Assembly (NCBI GenBank): GCA_030729695.1
Contig: JANQWV010000044.1
Span: 1-64,000, forward strand
DNA from: Flavobacteriales bacterium
Lineage (GTDB): Bacteria > Bacteroidota > Bacteroidia > Flavobacteriales_D > Sanyastnellaceae
Direction of reading: 5' to 3'
Length of the DNA: 64,000 bases
How positions within the stretch are numbered: the stretch's first letter is position 1; each line of letters starts with the position of its first letter. Both the position numbers and the translations under genes were made by a program. Below the pieces are notes generated by a model. That model was not told the origin of the DNA, searched no databases, and saw only the letters and a list, made by a program, of their open reading frames with translations. This document shows positions 1,659 through 12,699 of the stretch, piece after piece.

Positions 1659-2809
1659 TTCTGAATTTTTTTAAGGGCTTCTTCGTTGCTAATTCGGATG
1701 CCATTTTCGAAGGCGACAACGAATGCTCCGCTGAATCCAGCATCGCGAAGAATCTTTTGATTCTTCTTGGCGTCGTCTAAACTTCGAGTGCTTCCCACTA
1801 GGTACTTGTGTGCGCCGTTGCTAAGGTATTCCTCAATTCTGACTAAACCTTTAAATTGATTTGATTTTTTTTGAATAGGGGTGGCGGAACTGAGTATTTG
1901 AACTTTAAACGCCACTTGTTCCGCAGGAATCTCTTCCCAAATAAGTCCTTCAAAGGCATTGTGCTGGATTGGTTGCTCAACAACAGCGGTCGGTGTTGGA
2001 AGATTCGTAGGTTGAATGTTGAAAAGTTTGCTTTGGTAATCAACGAAAGCGCGGTACACTGCAGAACTCAATTCATCCTTCGCCGCTTTGCTTTGCAGGT
2101 AGTCCTCCTCTTTGTGATTGGAAAGGAATCCCAACTCAATGAGAATACTTGGCATGTTGGTGAAGGTGATGACGTAATAAGGCGCTTGCTTCACGCCGCG
2201 ATTTTTTCTGCCCAATTTCACGAATTCATCTTGAACGTTTTTCGCAAGAAGAATGCTCTTGTCTTGGTAAATGTTTTCGCGAAGGCTCATGGCAATGTAC
2301 GTGTCTGGATTATTCGGGTCGAAACCGTCGTAATCTTTACTACCGTTGCTCTCCAAATAGATGGAAGCGTTTTCGCGCATGGCATTTCGCAAACTCTCTT
2401 CCGATTTGTGCAATCCCATAACGAAGGACTCGGAGCCTGATGCTTCGGTATTGGGATTGGCGTTGCAGTGAATACTTATAAAAAGGTCGGCGTTGTTCGA
2501 ATTGGCAATCTCTACGCGACGCTTCAGCGTTGGGAAGGTGTCGCCTGTTCTTGTATAAACAACTTTAACATTGGGGTAGTTCTGCTCAATGAGTTTTCCC
2601 ACTTTAAGGGTTACGTCTAATGCAATGTCTTTTTCCGAAGTCTTGTATCGCCCAGTTCCCAAGGTTCCAGGATCTTTGCCGCCATGTCCCGCGTCAAGCA
2701 CAACAATAAACTTTTTATCTATCGTTACTACTTTCTTCGAAATGCGATACGCCGAACCTAAAGTGAAAACCAGTGCCACTAAAAAAATGTACAGTATTTT
2801 TTTGTGCAT
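1655..2809 (-). CDS. N-acetylmuramoyl-L-alanine amidase with C-terminal SPOR-like domain
   Basis: 385 aa from the chosen start. It has a signal/anchor segment (MHKKILYIFLVALVFTLGS) and an Amidase_3 domain with the zinc ligands in VLDAGHGGKDPGT, the Glu in SEKDIAL, the His in SIHCNAN and the catalytic Glu in ILIELGFLSN. The C-terminal part (AFKVQILSS ... YKY-like HKYLVGSTRSLDDA ... FVVAFENGIRI) reads like a SPOR peptidoglycan-binding domain. It cuts the amide bond between MurNAc and the stem peptide during cell separation. The frame is open upstream to 2926, but a TAnnTTTG element at 2873-2880 lies inside that extension. Start 2809 gives the best signal peptide; 2845 (MLNIREN) is the alternative. 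The gene is divergent from lptD and coupled to the MCE gene. Confidence 0.9.
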   Translation of the reverse strand: MHKKILYIFLVALVFTLGSAYRISKKVVTIDKKFIVVLDAGHGGKDPGTLGTGRYKTSEKDIALDVTLKVGKLIEQNYPNVKVVYTRTGDTFPTLKRRVEIANSNNADLFISIHCNANPNTEASGSESFVMGLHKSEESLRNAMRENASIYLESNGSKDYDGFDPNNPDTYIAMSLRENIYQDKSILLAKNVQDEFVKLGRKNRGVKQAPYYVITFTNMPSILIELGFLSNHKEEDYLQSKAAKDELSSAVYRAFVDYQSKLFNIQPTNLPTPTAVVEQPIQHNAFEGLIWEEIPAEQVAFKVQILSSATPIQKKSNQFKGLVRIEEYLSNGAHKYLVGSTRSLDDAKKNQKILRDAGFSGAFVVAFENGIRISNEEALKKIQK

Positions 2810-2872
2810 CTGCTGTAAGGGTTTATTTTCTCGAATGTTTAGCATAGCTTTGACACGTAAACGCAATTTAAA

Positions 2873-2880
2873 CAAAACTA
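2873..2880 (-). promoter_or_regulatory. Bacteroidota -7 element (TAGTTTTG) for the amidase-MCE operon
   Basis: A perfect TAnnTTTG match, 27 nt before ATG 2845 and 63 nt before ATG 2809. No clear -33 TTTG is seen. It lies inside the longest possible amidase frame and so argues against the upstream starts (2926 and 2899). Confidence 0.45.
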
Positions 2881-2897
2881 TTTTTCTTTGTGAAGGC

Positions 2898-5417
2898 ATG
2901 AACTTCCGACGCGCTCTAATTTTCACGTGTGTGGTGTTGATAAGCTCCTTATTGAACCCGCTGTCTGCGCAGTCTGATACCTTGTCGCCAATGCCTTCCG
3001 ATACCCTTTATTTTTCTTCCGAAGATCAGGCCATGGAAGAGGTTCATTATTTCGGGAAGGACAGCACGGTGATGGATTTGATTAATGATCGCGTGTATTT
3101 ATTTGGATTGGGTTCCTATGTTACATACGGAGATTTAGAGTTAAAAGCGGGATACATCGCTTTTTCATTGACCGATAACATTGCTTTCGCGAGGGGATTC
3201 AAAGATTCGTTGGGTGTTTATACGGGAAGGCCCGTGTTTACTCAAGGAGAGACCTCGTTCGAAGAAGATTCTTTGGGCTATCATTTCAAATCGAAAAGAG
3301 GAATTAGTTACGGCGTTCGCACGGAAGAGTCTGACGCGTATTTGCATACTGCCATTTCGAAGATGCAGGTAGACAAGACCATTCACATTCGAAAAGGAAA
3401 ATTCACCACGTGTTCGAATCCGAATCCGCATTTCCATTTTCAATTGTCGAAGGCCATTATTATTCCGAATGAAAAGATTGTGAGTGGTCCGCTATACTTG
3501 CAATTCAGGAAAGTGCCGGTACCGTTGGGATTGCCGTTTGGATTCTTTCCGAATAAAAAAGAAAGCACGTATGGAATTTTAATCCCGGGATATGGAAATG
3601 GAAGGGCGAAGGGATTCTTCGTTCAGAACTTGGGATATTATTTTCCTATTAATGATCACATTGACACGAAGCTTTTGTTTGATGTTTATACGGGCGGGTC
3701 GTGGAGCATAAAGAATATTACGAACTACAAGAAGCGATACAAGTATCAAGGGTCTTTCAATATTTCAAGAACCATTAACAAAACAGGTTTCCGCGAGTTG
3801 CCGAATTATGTGCAGCAGTCGACCTTCAACATTCGTTGGACACATTCGCAAGACCCGAAGGCACGTCCGAACGAGTCTTTTAGCGCGAATGTGAATTTGG
3901 GAAGTTCTCAGAATTTCAGAAATAACTTGAACGCTACGCAACAAGATTTCTTAACGAGCACCTTCAACTCTGCGGTGCAATGGTCGAAGTCTTTTCCTGG
4001 AAAGCCTTTCTCGTTGGCGCTTTCAGCGAATCACACGCAGAACACGCAATCGCGATTGGTTCAGATTACTTTGCCATCTGCGGCGTTCAACGTGTCTCGT
4101 ATTAATTTGTTGAAGAAGGTCTTTCCGAAATCTCCCATTGGAATTAACGCCTCGGTGAATACAGAGCAGCAGCTTTCGGCTTATGAGCAACAGTTTGGGC
4201 AATTGACCATGAGTGAATTATTGAACAAGGCAACCAGCGGGGTTCGCATGAATACTACGGCGAGCACATCTTGGAAGTTGGGACAGTTTTTGACTTTGAA
4301 TCCGAGTGCCACCTTCACGGGGTATGGCACCTGGAAAGTGGTTTCTCCGATTAGCGACGCGCAGTTGGATACGGTTGCTGGGTTCAAAGCAGCGGGAAAT
4401 TGGTCGACGCAGATATCGGCGGACACGCGTATTTACGGGACGTTTGTCCGTATGGGCGCGAAGAAGATTAAAGCGGTTCGTCACATGATTCAGCCGAGGG
4501 TGGGGTTTTCTTACACGCCTTATCAGAATTTCCAGCAGTTCGGTTATTACGGAGTGAATGGCGAGTTCTTGGGGTATTCGGCGTTCGATGCGGCGCGGTT
4601 TGCACCAACGAGTTCTTCTCAGACAGCGAACATGAATTTTTCTATTAATCAGAATATTGAAGCGAAGGTTCGCGATGAATCTTCAGCGAAGGTGTCGTAT
4701 AAGAAGGTGAAGATTATTGATAGTTTTAGAACCAGTACATCGCGCAATTTTATGGCCGATTCTATTCAGTGGAGCAACGTGAATTTCTCGGCCTTTACAT
4801 CGGTTGGAAAATTCTTAACCTTGAACTATTCGTCTTCTTACAGCATGTACGATCGCGATTCGCTGGGTCGGAAGATTGATACGTTTTTGAATGAATCGCG
4901 AAAAGGAATTGCGCGCATGGAAGGCACCAATTTAGCATTGGGAATTGTTGTGCGCAGCAAGCAGGCGAAGCCCAGTTCTAATCAGACAGCGGCTAATCCG
5001 GCTGTTGCGCCTCAGCAACAAGAGATTCTTTCTACCAACCAAGCGACGCTCATCGACTTCAATGTGCCTTGGAATTTGAGTGTGAATTACAACTTGCGCA
5101 TGAGTAAGAAGTGGTTGGTTGATCAACAGCGCGACAGTACGATATATACGCAGGCGATCACGTTCATGGGCGATGTTGCTTTCGCGAAACGCTTGGCGTT
5201 GAGCTTCAATGGAGGGTATGATTTTAATTCGAAGGAAATGACTACGACAACGGTTGGCCTTCACGTAGATCTTCACTGTTGGGAGTTAAGTGCGAACGTG
5301 GTACCGTTCGGACTTCGTCAGAGTTATTACATTCAGTTGAATATTAAATCTCCCTTACTGCAAGATCTGAAGTTGCAGAGACGCGGGAATTTGGGAGAGG
5401 AGACTTTGCTCTATTAG
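2898..5417 (+). CDS. lptD: LptD-like outer membrane LPS-assembly protein
   Basis: 839 aa from ATG 2898. The signal peptide MNFRRALIFTCVVLISSLLN ends near LSAQ. An OstA-like N-terminal region (about 40-210) contains NDRVYLFGLGSYVTYGDLEL, and a large beta-barrel follows. Family-typical text includes PFGFFPNKKESTYGILIPGY and NLGYYFPINDHIDTKLLFDV. LptD inserts lipopolysaccharide or lipooligosaccharide into the outer leaflet. The frame is open back to 2589, but that part is antisense to the amidase and unlike an N-terminus; the signal peptide fixes the start. The start codon overlaps a possible amidase ATG (2897-2899) on the other strand. A weak TTTCTTTG element ends 7 nt before the ATG. The length suits Bacteroidota LptD. 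Confidence 0.88.
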   Translation: MNFRRALIFTCVVLISSLLNPLSAQSDTLSPMPSDTLYFSSEDQAMEEVHYFGKDSTVMDLINDRVYLFGLGSYVTYGDLELKAGYIAFSLTDNIAFARGFKDSLGVYTGRPVFTQGETSFEEDSLGYHFKSKRGISYGVRTEESDAYLHTAISKMQVDKTIHIRKGKFTTCSNPNPHFHFQLSKAIIIPNEKIVSGPLYLQFRKVPVPLGLPFGFFPNKKESTYGILIPGYGNGRAKGFFVQNLGYYFPINDHIDTKLLFDVYTGGSWSIKNITNYKKRYKYQGSFNISRTINKTGFRELPNYVQQSTFNIRWTHSQDPKARPNESFSANVNLGSSQNFRNNLNATQQDFLTSTFNSAVQWSKSFPGKPFSLALSANHTQNTQSRLVQITLPSAAFNVSRINLLKKVFPKSPIGINASVNTEQQLSAYEQQFGQLTMSELLNKATSGVRMNTTASTSWKLGQFLTLNPSATFTGYGTWKVVSPISDAQLDTVAGFKAAGNWSTQISADTRIYGTFVRMGAKKIKAVRHMIQPRVGFSYTPYQNFQQFGYYGVNGEFLGYSAFDAARFAPTSSSQTANMNFSINQNIEAKVRDESSAKVSYKKVKIIDSFRTSTSRNFMADSIQWSNVNFSAFTSVGKFLTLNYSSSYSMYDRDSLGRKIDTFLNESRKGIARMEGTNLALGIVVRSKQAKPSSNQTAANPAVAPQQQEILSTNQATLIDFNVPWNLSVNYNLRMSKKWLVDQQRDSTIYTQAITFMGDVAFAKRLALSFNGGYDFNSKEMTTTTVGLHVDLHCWELSANVVPFGLRQSYYIQLNIKSPLLQDLKLQRRGNLGEETLLY

Positions 5418-5426
5418 AGCAAGAAT

Positions 5427-5551
5427 GTGCGAAGCACGAATGCCCGAAGGGCGAATGTCTGCGACTCATGTTACGAAGTAACGAATCTCTTCGAGGAATG
5501 TTACGAAGTAACGAATGTCTTTCAGACGAATGCTTCGCGAATGTCTTCAAC
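5427..5551. repeat. Array of GNA-triloop mini-hairpins, period about 15 nt
   Basis: Nine tiny inverted repeats, mostly separated by GAAT: GTGC-GAA-GCAC (5427-5437), GCCC-GAA-GGGC (5442-5452), GTC-TGC-GAC (5457-5465), GTTAC-GAA-GTAAC (5470-5482), CTC-TTC-GAG (5487-5495), GTTAC-GAA-GTAAC (5500-5512), GTCT-TTC-AGAC (5517-5527), GC-TTC-GC (5532-5538) and a decayed GTC-TTC-AAC (5543-5551). Loop centres fall near 5432, 5447, 5461, 5476, 5491, 5506, 5522, 5535 and 5547. The stems differ from unit to unit yet remain complementary. Read on one strand or the other, the loops are GAA or GCA, that is GNA. Both reading directions contain stops, so it is not coding. It lies downstream of lptD. I know no name for it. 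Confidence 0.7.
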
Positions 5552-5557
5552 GATTTT

Positions 5558-5640
5558 AACACAGTTCCAACAACGTAGTTCCAATTATGAATCCCGATAG
5601 CTATCGGGAGGAATTACGAAGTAGGAATTACGAAGTTCCA
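5558..5640. repeat. AACGNAGTT hairpins plus palindrome TCCCGATAGCTATCGGGA (repeat copy A)
   Basis: It contains AAC-ACA-GTT (5558-5566) and AAC-GTA-GTT (5572-5580), then a perfect 18-bp palindrome at 5592-5609 and two TTACGAAGT units. Positions 5572-5622 match 6190-6240 without gaps at 45 of 51 positions. I have seen the CCCGATAGCTATCGGG palindrome repeatedly in Bacteroidota intergenic DNA, but cannot confirm that here. It continues directly from the mini-hairpin array. Confidence 0.6.
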
Positions 5641-5714: not shown

Positions 5715-6050
5715 TTAATACATCAAACTTTTTTTAGAAGCATTTCTCCATCCAGCTTGATTTTCGTACTGAACGAAAAAGATTTTTAAGTTCGCTTGGT
5801 TTTCATACTGAACAAAAAAGATTTTCTTTTTTGCTTGATTGGAATAATCGGTGAAGAACCACTTCCCTTCATTGGCGATTGCCTGATTTTCATACTTTAC
5901 CTTGAAGACTTTTAAGTCAGCTTGGTTTTCGTAATCGACAACAAAAACCTTCACGTCGGCCTGATTTTCATAATCAACAGAAAATACTTTTTGCGCTTTC
6001 ACTGCGCCAAAGGCGAACAACATGGTCGTAAGAACTAAGATTTTTTTCAT
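5715..6050 (-). CDS. DUF6150-family secreted protein with YENQA repeats
   Basis: 111 aa from ATG 6050. It has a signal peptide (MKKILVLTTMLFAFGAVKAQ) and then about six copies of a 13-residue unit of the form K-V-F-x-V-x-Y-E-N-Q-A-D-x (KVFSVDYENQADVK, VFVVDYENQADLK, VFKVKYENQA, WFFTDYSNQAKKK, IFFVQYENQANLK, IFFVQYENQAGW). I recall this pattern as DUF6150; the function is unknown. The unit alternates hydrophobic and polar residues and looks like a short beta-strand repeat, perhaps a solenoid. The frame extends upstream to 6146, but the signal peptide fixes the start. The gene sits alone between two copies of an intergenic repeat. Confidence 0.7.
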   Translation of the reverse strand: MKKILVLTTMLFAFGAVKAQKVFSVDYENQADVKVFVVDYENQADLKVFKVKYENQAIANEGKWFFTDYSNQAKKKIFFVQYENQANLKIFFVQYENQAGWRNASKKSLMY

Positions 6051-6167
6051 TGTATTCCTTTGATTCGTTGTTTTTCTTTTGTTGTCTTTTGTTGTAATGC
6101 TAATATAAAGGAAACAAATAGAAAGACACGGTGTTATTTGATTCAAGCAAGAGGTAAGAAAAGTTAT

Positions 6168-8906: not shown

Positions 8907-9177
8907 TTGTTATTTAGCAAGGGTTAATCGTTCAAGAAAACTTTGTAAGTGGATAACTAACTTACCAGCTTAGCAAACTTCCAAAACATCTCATTTCAGC
9001 GCGATAAACGAAGGTTTTTCCCGTTCAGCTAAAGATAATGATTTTATTTTAAACCGTGAAATGGCGACCTGAATTATTGACTTTTTCATATGTTCGGGTG
9101 CAAATAGATGGTTGCGACTACTTCAATGTGATTCTATTTAAATCAGAGAAGTGTCAGAATCCTACATGCCTATTATA

Positions 9178-9240
9178 CCCCGGATAGAAGTGGAAAGCCT
9201 TTGAGCGAAGCGAGAAGCTTGGAACGAATAGCCGGAAAAA
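9178..9240. repeat. Candidate structured repeat (CCCCGGATAG...AATAGCCGG)
   Basis: CCGG at 9180-9183 can pair with CCGG at 9232-9235. Inside, AAG-C-CTTT (9195-9202) pairs with GAAGCTT (9214-9220), with one bulged C. The helix then has two apposed G/A mismatches and a GC-GAA-GC cap (9205-9211). I recall similar text (GGATAGAAGTGGAAAGCC ... GAACGAATAGCCGG) from other Bacteroidota intergenic regions, but cannot verify it. It may be an RNA element or a DNA repeat. Confidence 0.4.
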
Positions 9241-9251
9241 GGTCCAAATCT

Positions 9252-9335
9252 GTCTTCGACGAATGCCTTTCAGGCGAATGCTTCATTTAAAGTTAAGAGA
9301 GGGGAAGAGAAGGTAAGAAGGGGGAAGAGAAGGTT
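9252..9335. repeat. Short mini-hairpin array followed by purine tract
   Basis: GTC-TTC-GAC (9252-9260), GAAT, GCCT-TTC-AGGC (9265-9275), GAAT, then GCTTC: the same build as the 5427-5551 array with the same GAAT spacer. It is followed by AAAGTTAAGAGAGGGGAAG and a second GGGGGAAGAGAAGG (to 9335). The 16-mer at 9297-9312 equals 6168-6183. Confidence 0.6.
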
Positions 9336-9358
9336 TTGAGGGGTAATTGTTAGCTGAA

Positions 9359-11164: not shown

Positions 11165-11305
11165 GAGGGTCTTCGACGAGGGCAATTAGCGTTGCGAGGG
11201 TCCGGTGGACGAGGGCAAATGGCGTTGCGAGGGTCCTACGTACGAGGGTTTAACAACGAAGTTCCAATAACGTAGTTCTCACAACGAAGTTCAAACAACG
11301 CAGTT
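11165..11305. repeat. Mini-hairpin array with GAGG spacers, then four AACGNAGTT units
   Basis: The first half has GTC-TTC-GAC (11169-11177), GCAA-TTAGCG-TTGC (11182-11195), GTCC-GGT-GGAC (11200-11210), GCAA-ATGGCG-TTGC (11215-11228) and a decayed GTCCTACGTAC. All are separated by GAGG, which starts at 11165, 11178, 11196, 11211, 11229 and 11244. The second half has AAC-GAA-GTT (11255), AAC-GTA-GTT (11269), AAC-GAA-GTT (11283) and AAC-GCA-GTT (11297), with a period of exactly 14 nt and GNA loops throughout. It fills the gap between the nuoN end and the DinB start. Confidence 0.7.
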
Positions 11306-11310
11306 CATTT

Positions 11311-11346
11311 CTTCCACTCTCTTCCCTTTTCTTAACCTTTCTTAAC
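11311..11346. repeat. Pyrimidine/purine tract next to nuoN stop
   Basis: On the minus strand it reads TTAAGAAAGGTTAAGAAAAG then GGAAGAGAGTGGAAG, resembling the tracts at 9291-9335 and inside the CvfB-like gene (63634-63670). It begins 1 nt after the nuoN stop. Confidence 0.45.
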
Positions 11347-12699
11347 TTAAAGATTGTGCATGTACCCCGCTGCCACTGTCAACAACACCAACAAAGCAGT
11401 AAGCAAAATGTAGGTCCATTTGATAAGTGGAGTGAGGACAATGCGACCAGCGTTTTCGATATGCTGATAAACATTCAACGATGCGCGCAAGTAGTAAAAG
11501 GCTCCGATGGCAGAGGTAATGATCATGACAACCACCAATGCGAAATACTTCGCTTCGATCAATTGTGCAATGACGAAATACTTTGCAATGAATCCGCTGA
11601 ATGGAGGAATACCTGCCATTGAAAGTAAAGCAGCAGTGAAAGCGAAGGCCAATACACCGTTTCTTCTGTACAAGCCTTTCAACGGATTTCCTTCCAAGGT
11701 TTGTGTTTCCTTAATTACACCGAAGGCAATGATTCCGGCAATGCTGTACGTGAGCAAATAGAACAACAAACTCAATAACGATGCATTTCCAATAATGGTT
11801 GAAAGAAGGAATCCAGCGTGAGAGATACTCGAGTAAGCCAACATGCGTTTCACATCTGTCTGCCACAATGCTGCAGTATTTGAAGCAATAAGCGTTACCG
11901 CAGCGATAACTCCAATGGTGTAACCATTGGCTTCAACATAAAATTGAAATGGACCTGTGAAGAGTTTGAACAACGCTACCATAGCAGCTGCTTTCACAAT
12001 GGTTGACATGAATGCGGTGATCCATGTTGGTGCACCTTGATAAACGTCTGGAGTCCAAATGTGGAATGGCGCTGCAGAAATCTTGAAAAGGAATCCAACC
12101 AAAATCATGGTAATTCCAACATTCATAATGATCGATGCGTCTTTTCCGTCTTGAATGAAATTCGAGATAACTGCTAAATCGAAACTTCCAGTTGCGCCGT
12201 AAACCAAGGTGATTCCGAACAACAAAATAGCAGAAGCCACAGAACCCAAGATGAAGTACTTGAATCCACTTTCGTTTGAAGCCAAATCGTGTTTCTTACT
12301 CGCTGCCAAAACATAAACAGGAATACTTAAGATTTCAACCCCTAAGAATAACATAGCCATGTTTCCGAAAGAGGCCAAGAGTCCAGCACCGCAAAAACTG
12401 AATACCACCAAGGCGTACAAATCTGTTTTTCCTTCGTGTTGTTTGAAGTAAGACGAAGAAAGAATAAACCAGAAGAACAAGACAACAGCGAACACGCCTA
12501 AAGCCAAGTTTGCTCCGTTCTCATAAACCAACATGGTGTGATTGAATGGCGTCTCAACGGTGTTCCAATCTGCTGCAATAAAGCCAACCAACGTAGCCAA
12601 GGCAAGAAGTATAAATGGGAGAACGTATTTCTTCAGGTTTAGAATGTCTAAAACCAAAACTCCAATTCCCAATAATGCGGTTAGTAATAACTCTTTCAT
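11347..12699 (-). CDS. nuoN: NADH-quinone oxidoreductase subunit N
   Basis: 450 aa from ATG 12699 (MKELLLTALLGIGVLVLDIL). It has about 14 membrane helices of the proton-pumping antiporter type (Proton_antipo_M). Key text includes GVEILSIPVYVLAASKK, FKISAAPFHIWTPDVYQGAP with the conserved Lys and Pro, AYSSISHAGFLL, and GIPPFSGFIAKYFVIAQLIE. It forms one of three antiporter-like modules in the membrane arm of complex I. The frame is open to 12789, but that part overlaps nuoM; 12699 leaves a 4-nt gap. It is the last gene of the nuo operon. Confidence 0.96.
   Translation of the reverse strand: MKELLLTALLGIGVLVLDILNLKKYVLPFILLALATLVGFIAADWNTVETPFNHTMLVYENGANLALGVFAVVLFFWFILSSSYFKQHEGKTDLYALVVFSFCGAGLLASFGNMAMLFLGVEILSIPVYVLAASKKHDLASNESGFKYFILGSVASAILLFGITLVYGATGSFDLAVISNFIQDGKDASIIMNVGITMILVGFLFKISAAPFHIWTPDVYQGAPTWITAFMSTIVKAAAMVALFKLFTGPFQFYVEANGYTIGVIAAVTLIASNTAALWQTDVKRMLAYSSISHAGFLLSTIIGNASLLSLLFYLLTYSIAGIIAFGVIKETQTLEGNPLKGLYRRNGVLAFAFTAALLSMAGIPPFSGFIAKYFVIAQLIEAKYFALVVVMIITSAIGAFYYLRASLNVYQHIENAGRIVLTPLIKWTYILLTALLVLLTVAAGYMHNL

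Follow-up and report, generated by a model that had tools for sequence, protein, structure and literature searches.

Among the repeats described in bacterial genomes, REP elements and BIMEs combine a short constant tag (GTAG or CGTC) with a short-loop palindrome, lie mostly 3' of genes, show complementary stem variation between subfamilies, and carry a tag that can supply a stop codon (PMC3733652, PMC8266576). The tag and hairpin of REP are recognised strand-specifically, as ssDNA, by the HUH enzymes known as TnpA-REP, or RAYT (PMC3733652, PMC8266576). A row of short palindromes with compensatory stems, capped by GNA and CTTG loops and folding as ssDNA, is found in the telomeres of Streptomyces (PMC7205883). 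As to the HUH enzymes of the Y1 type, their subclass 1.2 has a Y---Q--HH signature and a short length and has been described for Bacteroidetes and Cyanobacteria, with no cognate structure or substrate known (PMC6006769). Several hairpins 3' of a stop codon have been reported as terminator clusters (PMC8355165), and TAACTGA-type heptamer repeats are abundant and intergenic, also in some Bacteroidetes (PMC4679880).

The arrays of very short hairpins described here, first noticed behind an lptD-like gene in the 64,000-nt stretch of DNA under analysis (the window), share with REP/BIME the constant tag, the short-loop palindrome, the location 3' of genes, the complementary variation of stems and the tag that can supply a stop codon. 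The tags are nevertheless GAAT, GAGG, GTCATC or ATTGAT, with no unpaired GTAG/CGTC tag; the stems are mostly 2-7 bp, as against 6-13 bp (mostly 6-9) in REP; and whereas one palindrome is common to all copies of a REP family, here the stems differ within one array. The cognate RAYT gene of REP is flanked by copies of the element, while a Y1 gene is present here in four of nine congeners, as a candidate only, with none detected in one array-rich genome (G010) and with another palindrome nearby. By definition (tag, common palindrome) the arrays fail as REP, yet it is a REP system that they work most like. The Streptomyces telomeres resemble them in the row of palindromes, the compensatory stems, the loops and, probably, the folding as ssDNA, but are found at chromosome ends, together with terminal proteins, and have no constant linker, whereas the arrays, in Flavobacteriales, are associated with stop codons at dozens of places inside the genome. 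Y1 proteins of four congeners match the subclass 1.2 signature and short length. In IS200/IS605, two subterminal hairpins bound the transposase; the array modules are free of genes. Terminator clusters likewise place several hairpins behind a stop codon, but in the arrays the linker is constant, the tiny hairpins can number nine or more, and DNA-type loops are on the other strand; an intrinsic terminator consists of a GC hairpin and a T-tract, and the lptD array has no strong hairpin with a run of T. The heptamer repeats are similarly abundant and intergenic, but they are direct heptamers and not variable hairpins. A CRISPR array combines a conserved repeat with unique, non-repetitive spacers and cas genes; here, the variable parts are self-complementary and reused, and the region gave no match to a phage collection. 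Our search of the open-access literature on bacterial hairpin arrays and variable-stem repeats found no description of such elements, in agreement with the original prediction, in which no described repeat class of this build was known.

The lptD-like gene (a name taken from the original prediction) is a listed open reading frame at 2589-5417 (+) for which homologues were found and whose real start possibly lies further 3'. Directly behind it, nine inverted repeats with a period of roughly 15 nt had been predicted at 5427-5551 (+), and they are indeed there, eight as perfect hairpins and one imperfect, with stems of 2-5 bp, triloops, and GAAT as the joining sequence except for one TCAT. Read on the plus strand, the units are GTGC-gaa-GCAC (5427-5437), GCCC-gaa-GGGC (5442-5452), GTC-tgc-GAC (5457-5465), GTTAC-gaa-GTAAC (5470-5482), CTC-ttc-GAG (5487-5495), a second GTTAC-gaa-GTAAC (5500-5512), GTCT-ttc-AGAC (5517-5527), GC-ttc-GC with its 2-bp stem (5532-5538), and the imperfect GTC-ttc-AAC (5543-5551). 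The unit at 5532-5538 is assigned to the minus strand; on this antisense strand it is GCGAAGC, the classic example of a mini-hairpin with very high stability in DNA. The array does not start at 5427, however, but at the lptD stop codon, and thus covers 5406-5551: its first hairpin, TTGCTCT-att-AGAGCAA (5406-5422, +), has the TAG stop (5415-5417) inside it, and the last codons of lptD form its 5' arm. In the nine units at 5427-5551, every loop is GAA or GCA on one strand or the other. No strong hairpin followed by a run of T was found behind this array, which ends with GTCTTCAACGATTTT after the imperfect 3-bp stem.

Other repeats accompany the arrays in the window. Directly 3' of the lptD array, a second type is made of AACGTAGTTCC units (AAC-gta-GTT; 5559-5590, +); such tandem AACGNAGTT units (AAC-gna-GTT), with variable linkers and again with GNA loops, are often located behind hairpin arrays (5559-5590 and 11250-11305, as well as L046 and L093). 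The same repeat-rich stretch 3' of lptD holds a perfect 18-nt palindrome, TCCCGATAGCTATCGGGA (5592-5609), and two units of the GGAAT-TAC-gaa-GTA type (5609-5636, +), and a 143-aa open reading frame with repeated YENQA-type peptide units (DYENQADVKVF...) is found at 5715-6146 (-). A short GAAT array (GTCttcGAC, GCCT-ttc-AGGC; 9253-9283, +) lies in the intergenic region 8907-9358, and a GAGG-linker array composed of GTCttcGAC, GCAATtagcGTTGC, GTCCggtGGAC, GCAAAtggcGTTGC and GTCCTACGTAC lies at 11165-11248 (+), with an orthologous array in G008. Polypurine TAAGAGAAGG-type repeats, another gene-end repeat but one without hairpins, run from the stop codon onward behind a nuoN-like open reading frame (11316-11347, -), and at L092 they replace the array behind the lptD stop.

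The window belongs to a 2.1-Mb draft genome in 71 contigs, and across this whole genome the pattern CGAATG-N9..14-CGAATG has 54 matches, compared with 3 for the reversed control. The corresponding spaced-linker patterns have 15 matches vs 0 for CGAGGG, 81 vs 3 for GTCATC and 73 vs 2 for ATTGAT. With congeners enriched as well, these counts bear out the dozens of arrays in one clade that the original prediction had named as support, while GAAT as the sole linker did not hold: at least four linker families exist (GAAT/TAAT/GAGG/TAGG, GTCATC and ATTGAT), with one common hairpin rule and with stems differing both between families and from unit to unit. Stretches between CGAATG linkers are mostly hairpins, again with differing stems. 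A module, that is a linker and a hairpin, measures 13-20 bp, and stems of 2-6 bp occur in the GAAT family (37 distinct stems in 370 hairpins) and the GTCATC family (26 in 97). When pairing was not required for a unit to be counted, 473/569, 104/107 and 123/136 units of three families were perfect hairpins, in loci taken from several congeners and mostly chosen for holding arrays. Because stems vary from one unit to the next, palindromes of fixed sequence bound by a protein were rejected; a protein-binding array had been one suggested role. Peptide coding by the arrays was rejected too, as the module lengths shift the frame; the exception is L177, where a GAGG array made solely of 15-nt modules lies inside an open reading frame (1667-2212, +) and, on visual inspection, would code for HEGSMNEGAPHEGSMNEGTAHE close to the C-terminus. 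In places two GTCATC arrays stand back to back, and the 13 nt at the centre, where they meet, are conserved as GCTCCGCGAAGCG or a near variant (L171 2489-2764, L173 2322-2501, L175 2500-2674). The contig ends G000:C1, C3, C16 and C19 lie in hairpin arrays, and draft assemblies therefore probably undercount them.

Arrays are internal, between genes, and their orientation is strict. In 77 cases the array starts no more than 40 nt from a stop codon on the same strand and from none on the other, in 6 cases the reverse is true (p=8e-17), 13 arrays show both, and 83 are near no called stop. The sense-strand linker was read as GAAT/GAGG, GATGAC or ATCAAT; the reading of GTCATC and ATTGAT was chosen after the first examples, and the cleaner test is thus the GAAT family alone, with 53 sense and 4 antisense placements. 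Many arrays begin at the stop codon itself, which is part of the first linker (TAAT, TGAT, TAGAAT) or falls within the first loop, and convergent genes often have one array per stop, the two arrays facing each other. Some GTCATC arrays sit between divergent genes.

Such a placement is what one could expect of 3'-UTR hairpin clusters which act as transcription terminators or shield the 3' end of the mRNA, and in which pairing is selected in RNA. The sense-oriented start at the stop codon or close behind it (77 vs 6), the facing arrays between convergent genes, the terminator clusters already reported in this position (PMC8355165) and the conservation of stems over loops (see below) all agree with this explanation, whereas the arrays between divergent genes and the lack of a strong hairpin and U-tract behind the lptD array do not. 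Rfam gave no match above the gathering score either, with uup alone below the threshold (E=0.63). The types of loops also speak against it. On the antisense strand of the adjacent gene, distinct triloop units comprise 87 GNA, 35 TNC and 95 other loops, and the 2-bp stems comprise 48 GNA, 0 TNC and 8 other occurrences; this antisense GNA bias is present in the totals of three unrelated linker families, in which CTTG tetraloops on the same strand number 37 in total. GAAT units with 5-bp stems are the exception: on their antisense strand, TNC prevails over GNA (52 vs 4). Counted on either strand, GNA is found in 122/217 distinct triloop units genome-wide, compared with about 12.5% by chance, so that the original prediction was right about a strong over-representation of GNA, while its claim that every loop is GNA is true of the nine units at lptD (on one strand or the other) and not of the genome. 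Mini-hairpins with GNA loops closed by C-G are exceptionally stable in ssDNA; stems of 2 bp hold in DNA solely with special loops such as GNA, and they are unstable in RNA. Structured RNA is expected to show a G-U excess in the folding strand, yet a scripted count found no such excess on the sense strand (G-U 10 vs A-C 19). On the antisense strand, G-T outnumbered A-C (19 vs 10) without reaching significance (p=0.14), and wobble excess was dropped as a proof of the strand, since a partly hand-made count of 16 vs 5 had weakened to these figures when scripted. Because GNA and CTTG are known as loops that lend stability to folded DNA, it is likely, and the best-supported reading, that the ssDNA of the antisense strand folds, and not mRNA. 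Folding in mRNA is less likely than folding in DNA, and a transcript-level function as a whole seems to us rather unlikely; the predicted transcript 3' structure after lptD is thus confirmed in its position behind the stop and disfavoured as a structure of mRNA.

Comparison between species indicates that it is the pairing that is kept. Intact lptD arrays with a common first hairpin are found in five congeners, including that of the window, and the hairpin is also kept in G005, so that five congeners besides the window's carry it. Farther 3', the modules of these arrays differ, and the linker switches from GAAT to GAGG in L090 and L094. Among 96 orthologous unit pairs (not all of them independent, and matched with up to two differences allowed), loops differ at 39/300 sites (13.0%) and stems at 16/730 (2.2%), a substitution level about six times lower (p=5e-11). 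Together with four complementary double changes in stems, this supports the predicted selection for folding. Compensated stems are seen in the lptD arrays of G008 and G010 (GCAAT/ATTGC vs GCAAC/GTTGC) and in lptD unit 2 (GTGC/GCAC, GTGC/GCGC, GCGC/GCGC). Whole modules are gained or lost cleanly, as with the 15 bp GTCCGTAGGACGAAT that distinguishes L129 from L053, and some stems are chimeric, for example GCCC/GGAC. In G005, a distant congener (LptD 63% identical) which is otherwise free of arrays, the lptD array is present with most of its stems broken, as expected if maintenance had been lost there.

In the genomes searched, the CGAATG form is confined to one genus. Among 114 genomes of the family, CGAATG is clearly enriched in the window's genus alone (G006, G008, G010 and G011, less in G012 and G009), with 20 other genera at or near background; a wider pattern has 230 matches vs 9 in G011. 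Hairpin-type GTCATC triples were absent outside the window's genome among the matches listed for 395 genomes of the phylum, where most of those listed were coding sequence or direct repeats of short length. Stretches of up to 20 kb from 17 other genera of the family and from one other family showed no excess of tandem hairpins except in G038, although this test is weak, as the array-rich G008 was itself negative over one stretch of 20 kb. The excess in G038 proved to be an ordinary ACTAGTC heptamer repeat, and a long heptamer array in another genus (ACTAGTC/GTTAGTC; L225 1-380) is likewise a plain direct repeat and differs from the arrays of hairpins. A phage origin was rejected, given no match in the phage collection and a lone viral-contig match (L216) attributable to chance in GC-rich coding sequence. 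Named relatives matched through LptD are metagenome assemblies assigned to Flavobacteriales, to uncultured Bacteroidetes or, implausibly, to Chryseobacterium gleum; judging by the names of samples, relatives of the window's genome come from lakes.

One might suppose that mini-hairpins in ssDNA, being so stable with GNA loops closed by C-G, make the polymerase slip or switch templates, and that palindromes are perfected and modules multiply in this way with no enzyme or function involved. The gain and loss of modules within arrays and the chimeric stems are consistent with such a by-product of mutation. A general polymerase error should act everywhere, however, and yet other genera are not enriched and the G005 array has decayed; fixed linkers, several linker families and the strict orientation to stop codons would be left unexplained, and we consider this explanation unlikely. 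It is highly improbable that the arrays are ordinary tandem repeats, an assembly artefact or chance: several are at contig ends of a draft genome, as repeats are, but orthologous arrays with different units occur in independent assemblies of several species, the units are not copies of one another, and the controls gave 3/0/3/2 matches where 54/15/81/73 were observed.

An enzyme acting on such hairpins may be sought among the Y1 genes. These are present in G000, G006, G008 and G011, that is in four of the five array-rich genomes; none was detected in the fifth, G010 (230 contigs), nor in G005. Of five independent Y1 loci, four have an array unit less than 400 nt away, as against 10% of genes (p=5e-4), and the motif YI[KQ]NQKxHH (YIxNQKxHH) of the proteins fits HUH subclass 1.2. 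On the other hand, the Y1 genes are not bounded by array modules on both sides, and several of them (L178-L183) are accompanied by a nearby palindrome, longer than the modules and of the GGCATGGGtgttaGCCCATGC type, so that the GAAT modules need not be the Y1 substrate. The link to the arrays is one of proximity, and the step from a DNA hairpin recognised by its shape to a Y1 enzyme is inferred.

We tentatively prefer, with somewhat more doubt than confidence, to regard the arrays as a REP-like repeat system with a conserved linker and a mini-hairpin folding on one strand, whose antisense ssDNA would be read by a shape-reading enzyme. This enzyme would most plausibly be a Y1 orphan among the HUH proteins, similar to subclass 1.2, and the linker might be the short sequence which it recognises or cleaves. 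Modules of one array may be copied into another, where they would be joined in head-to-tail order, and arrays might start at the stop codon because this is the first position where an insertion spares the protein; secondarily, they may serve as gene-end structures. Against a REP-like system, it can be argued that a function at the transcript level, too, would lead one to expect arrays so closely oriented with genes. It is possible, but in our opinion doubtful, that the arrays constitute a new class of repeats that pass on their shape while their sequence may vary freely, namely antisense ssDNA mini-hairpins at gene ends that are read by a dedicated machinery, in linker families running in parallel within one genome, with an orphan HUH 1.2 enzyme.

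Repeats are usually defined by their sequence, whereas these arrays are defined by a short linker and the ability to fold, so that standard programs for finding repeats tend to overlook them. The arrays point to a process that reads the shape of DNA rather than its sequence. The hundreds of hairpin units represent a natural experiment on the recognition of folded ssDNA in cells, the arrays are a candidate substrate for an orphan subclass of HUH enzymes, and gene ends emerge as sites where elements of this kind accumulate in a fixed orientation.
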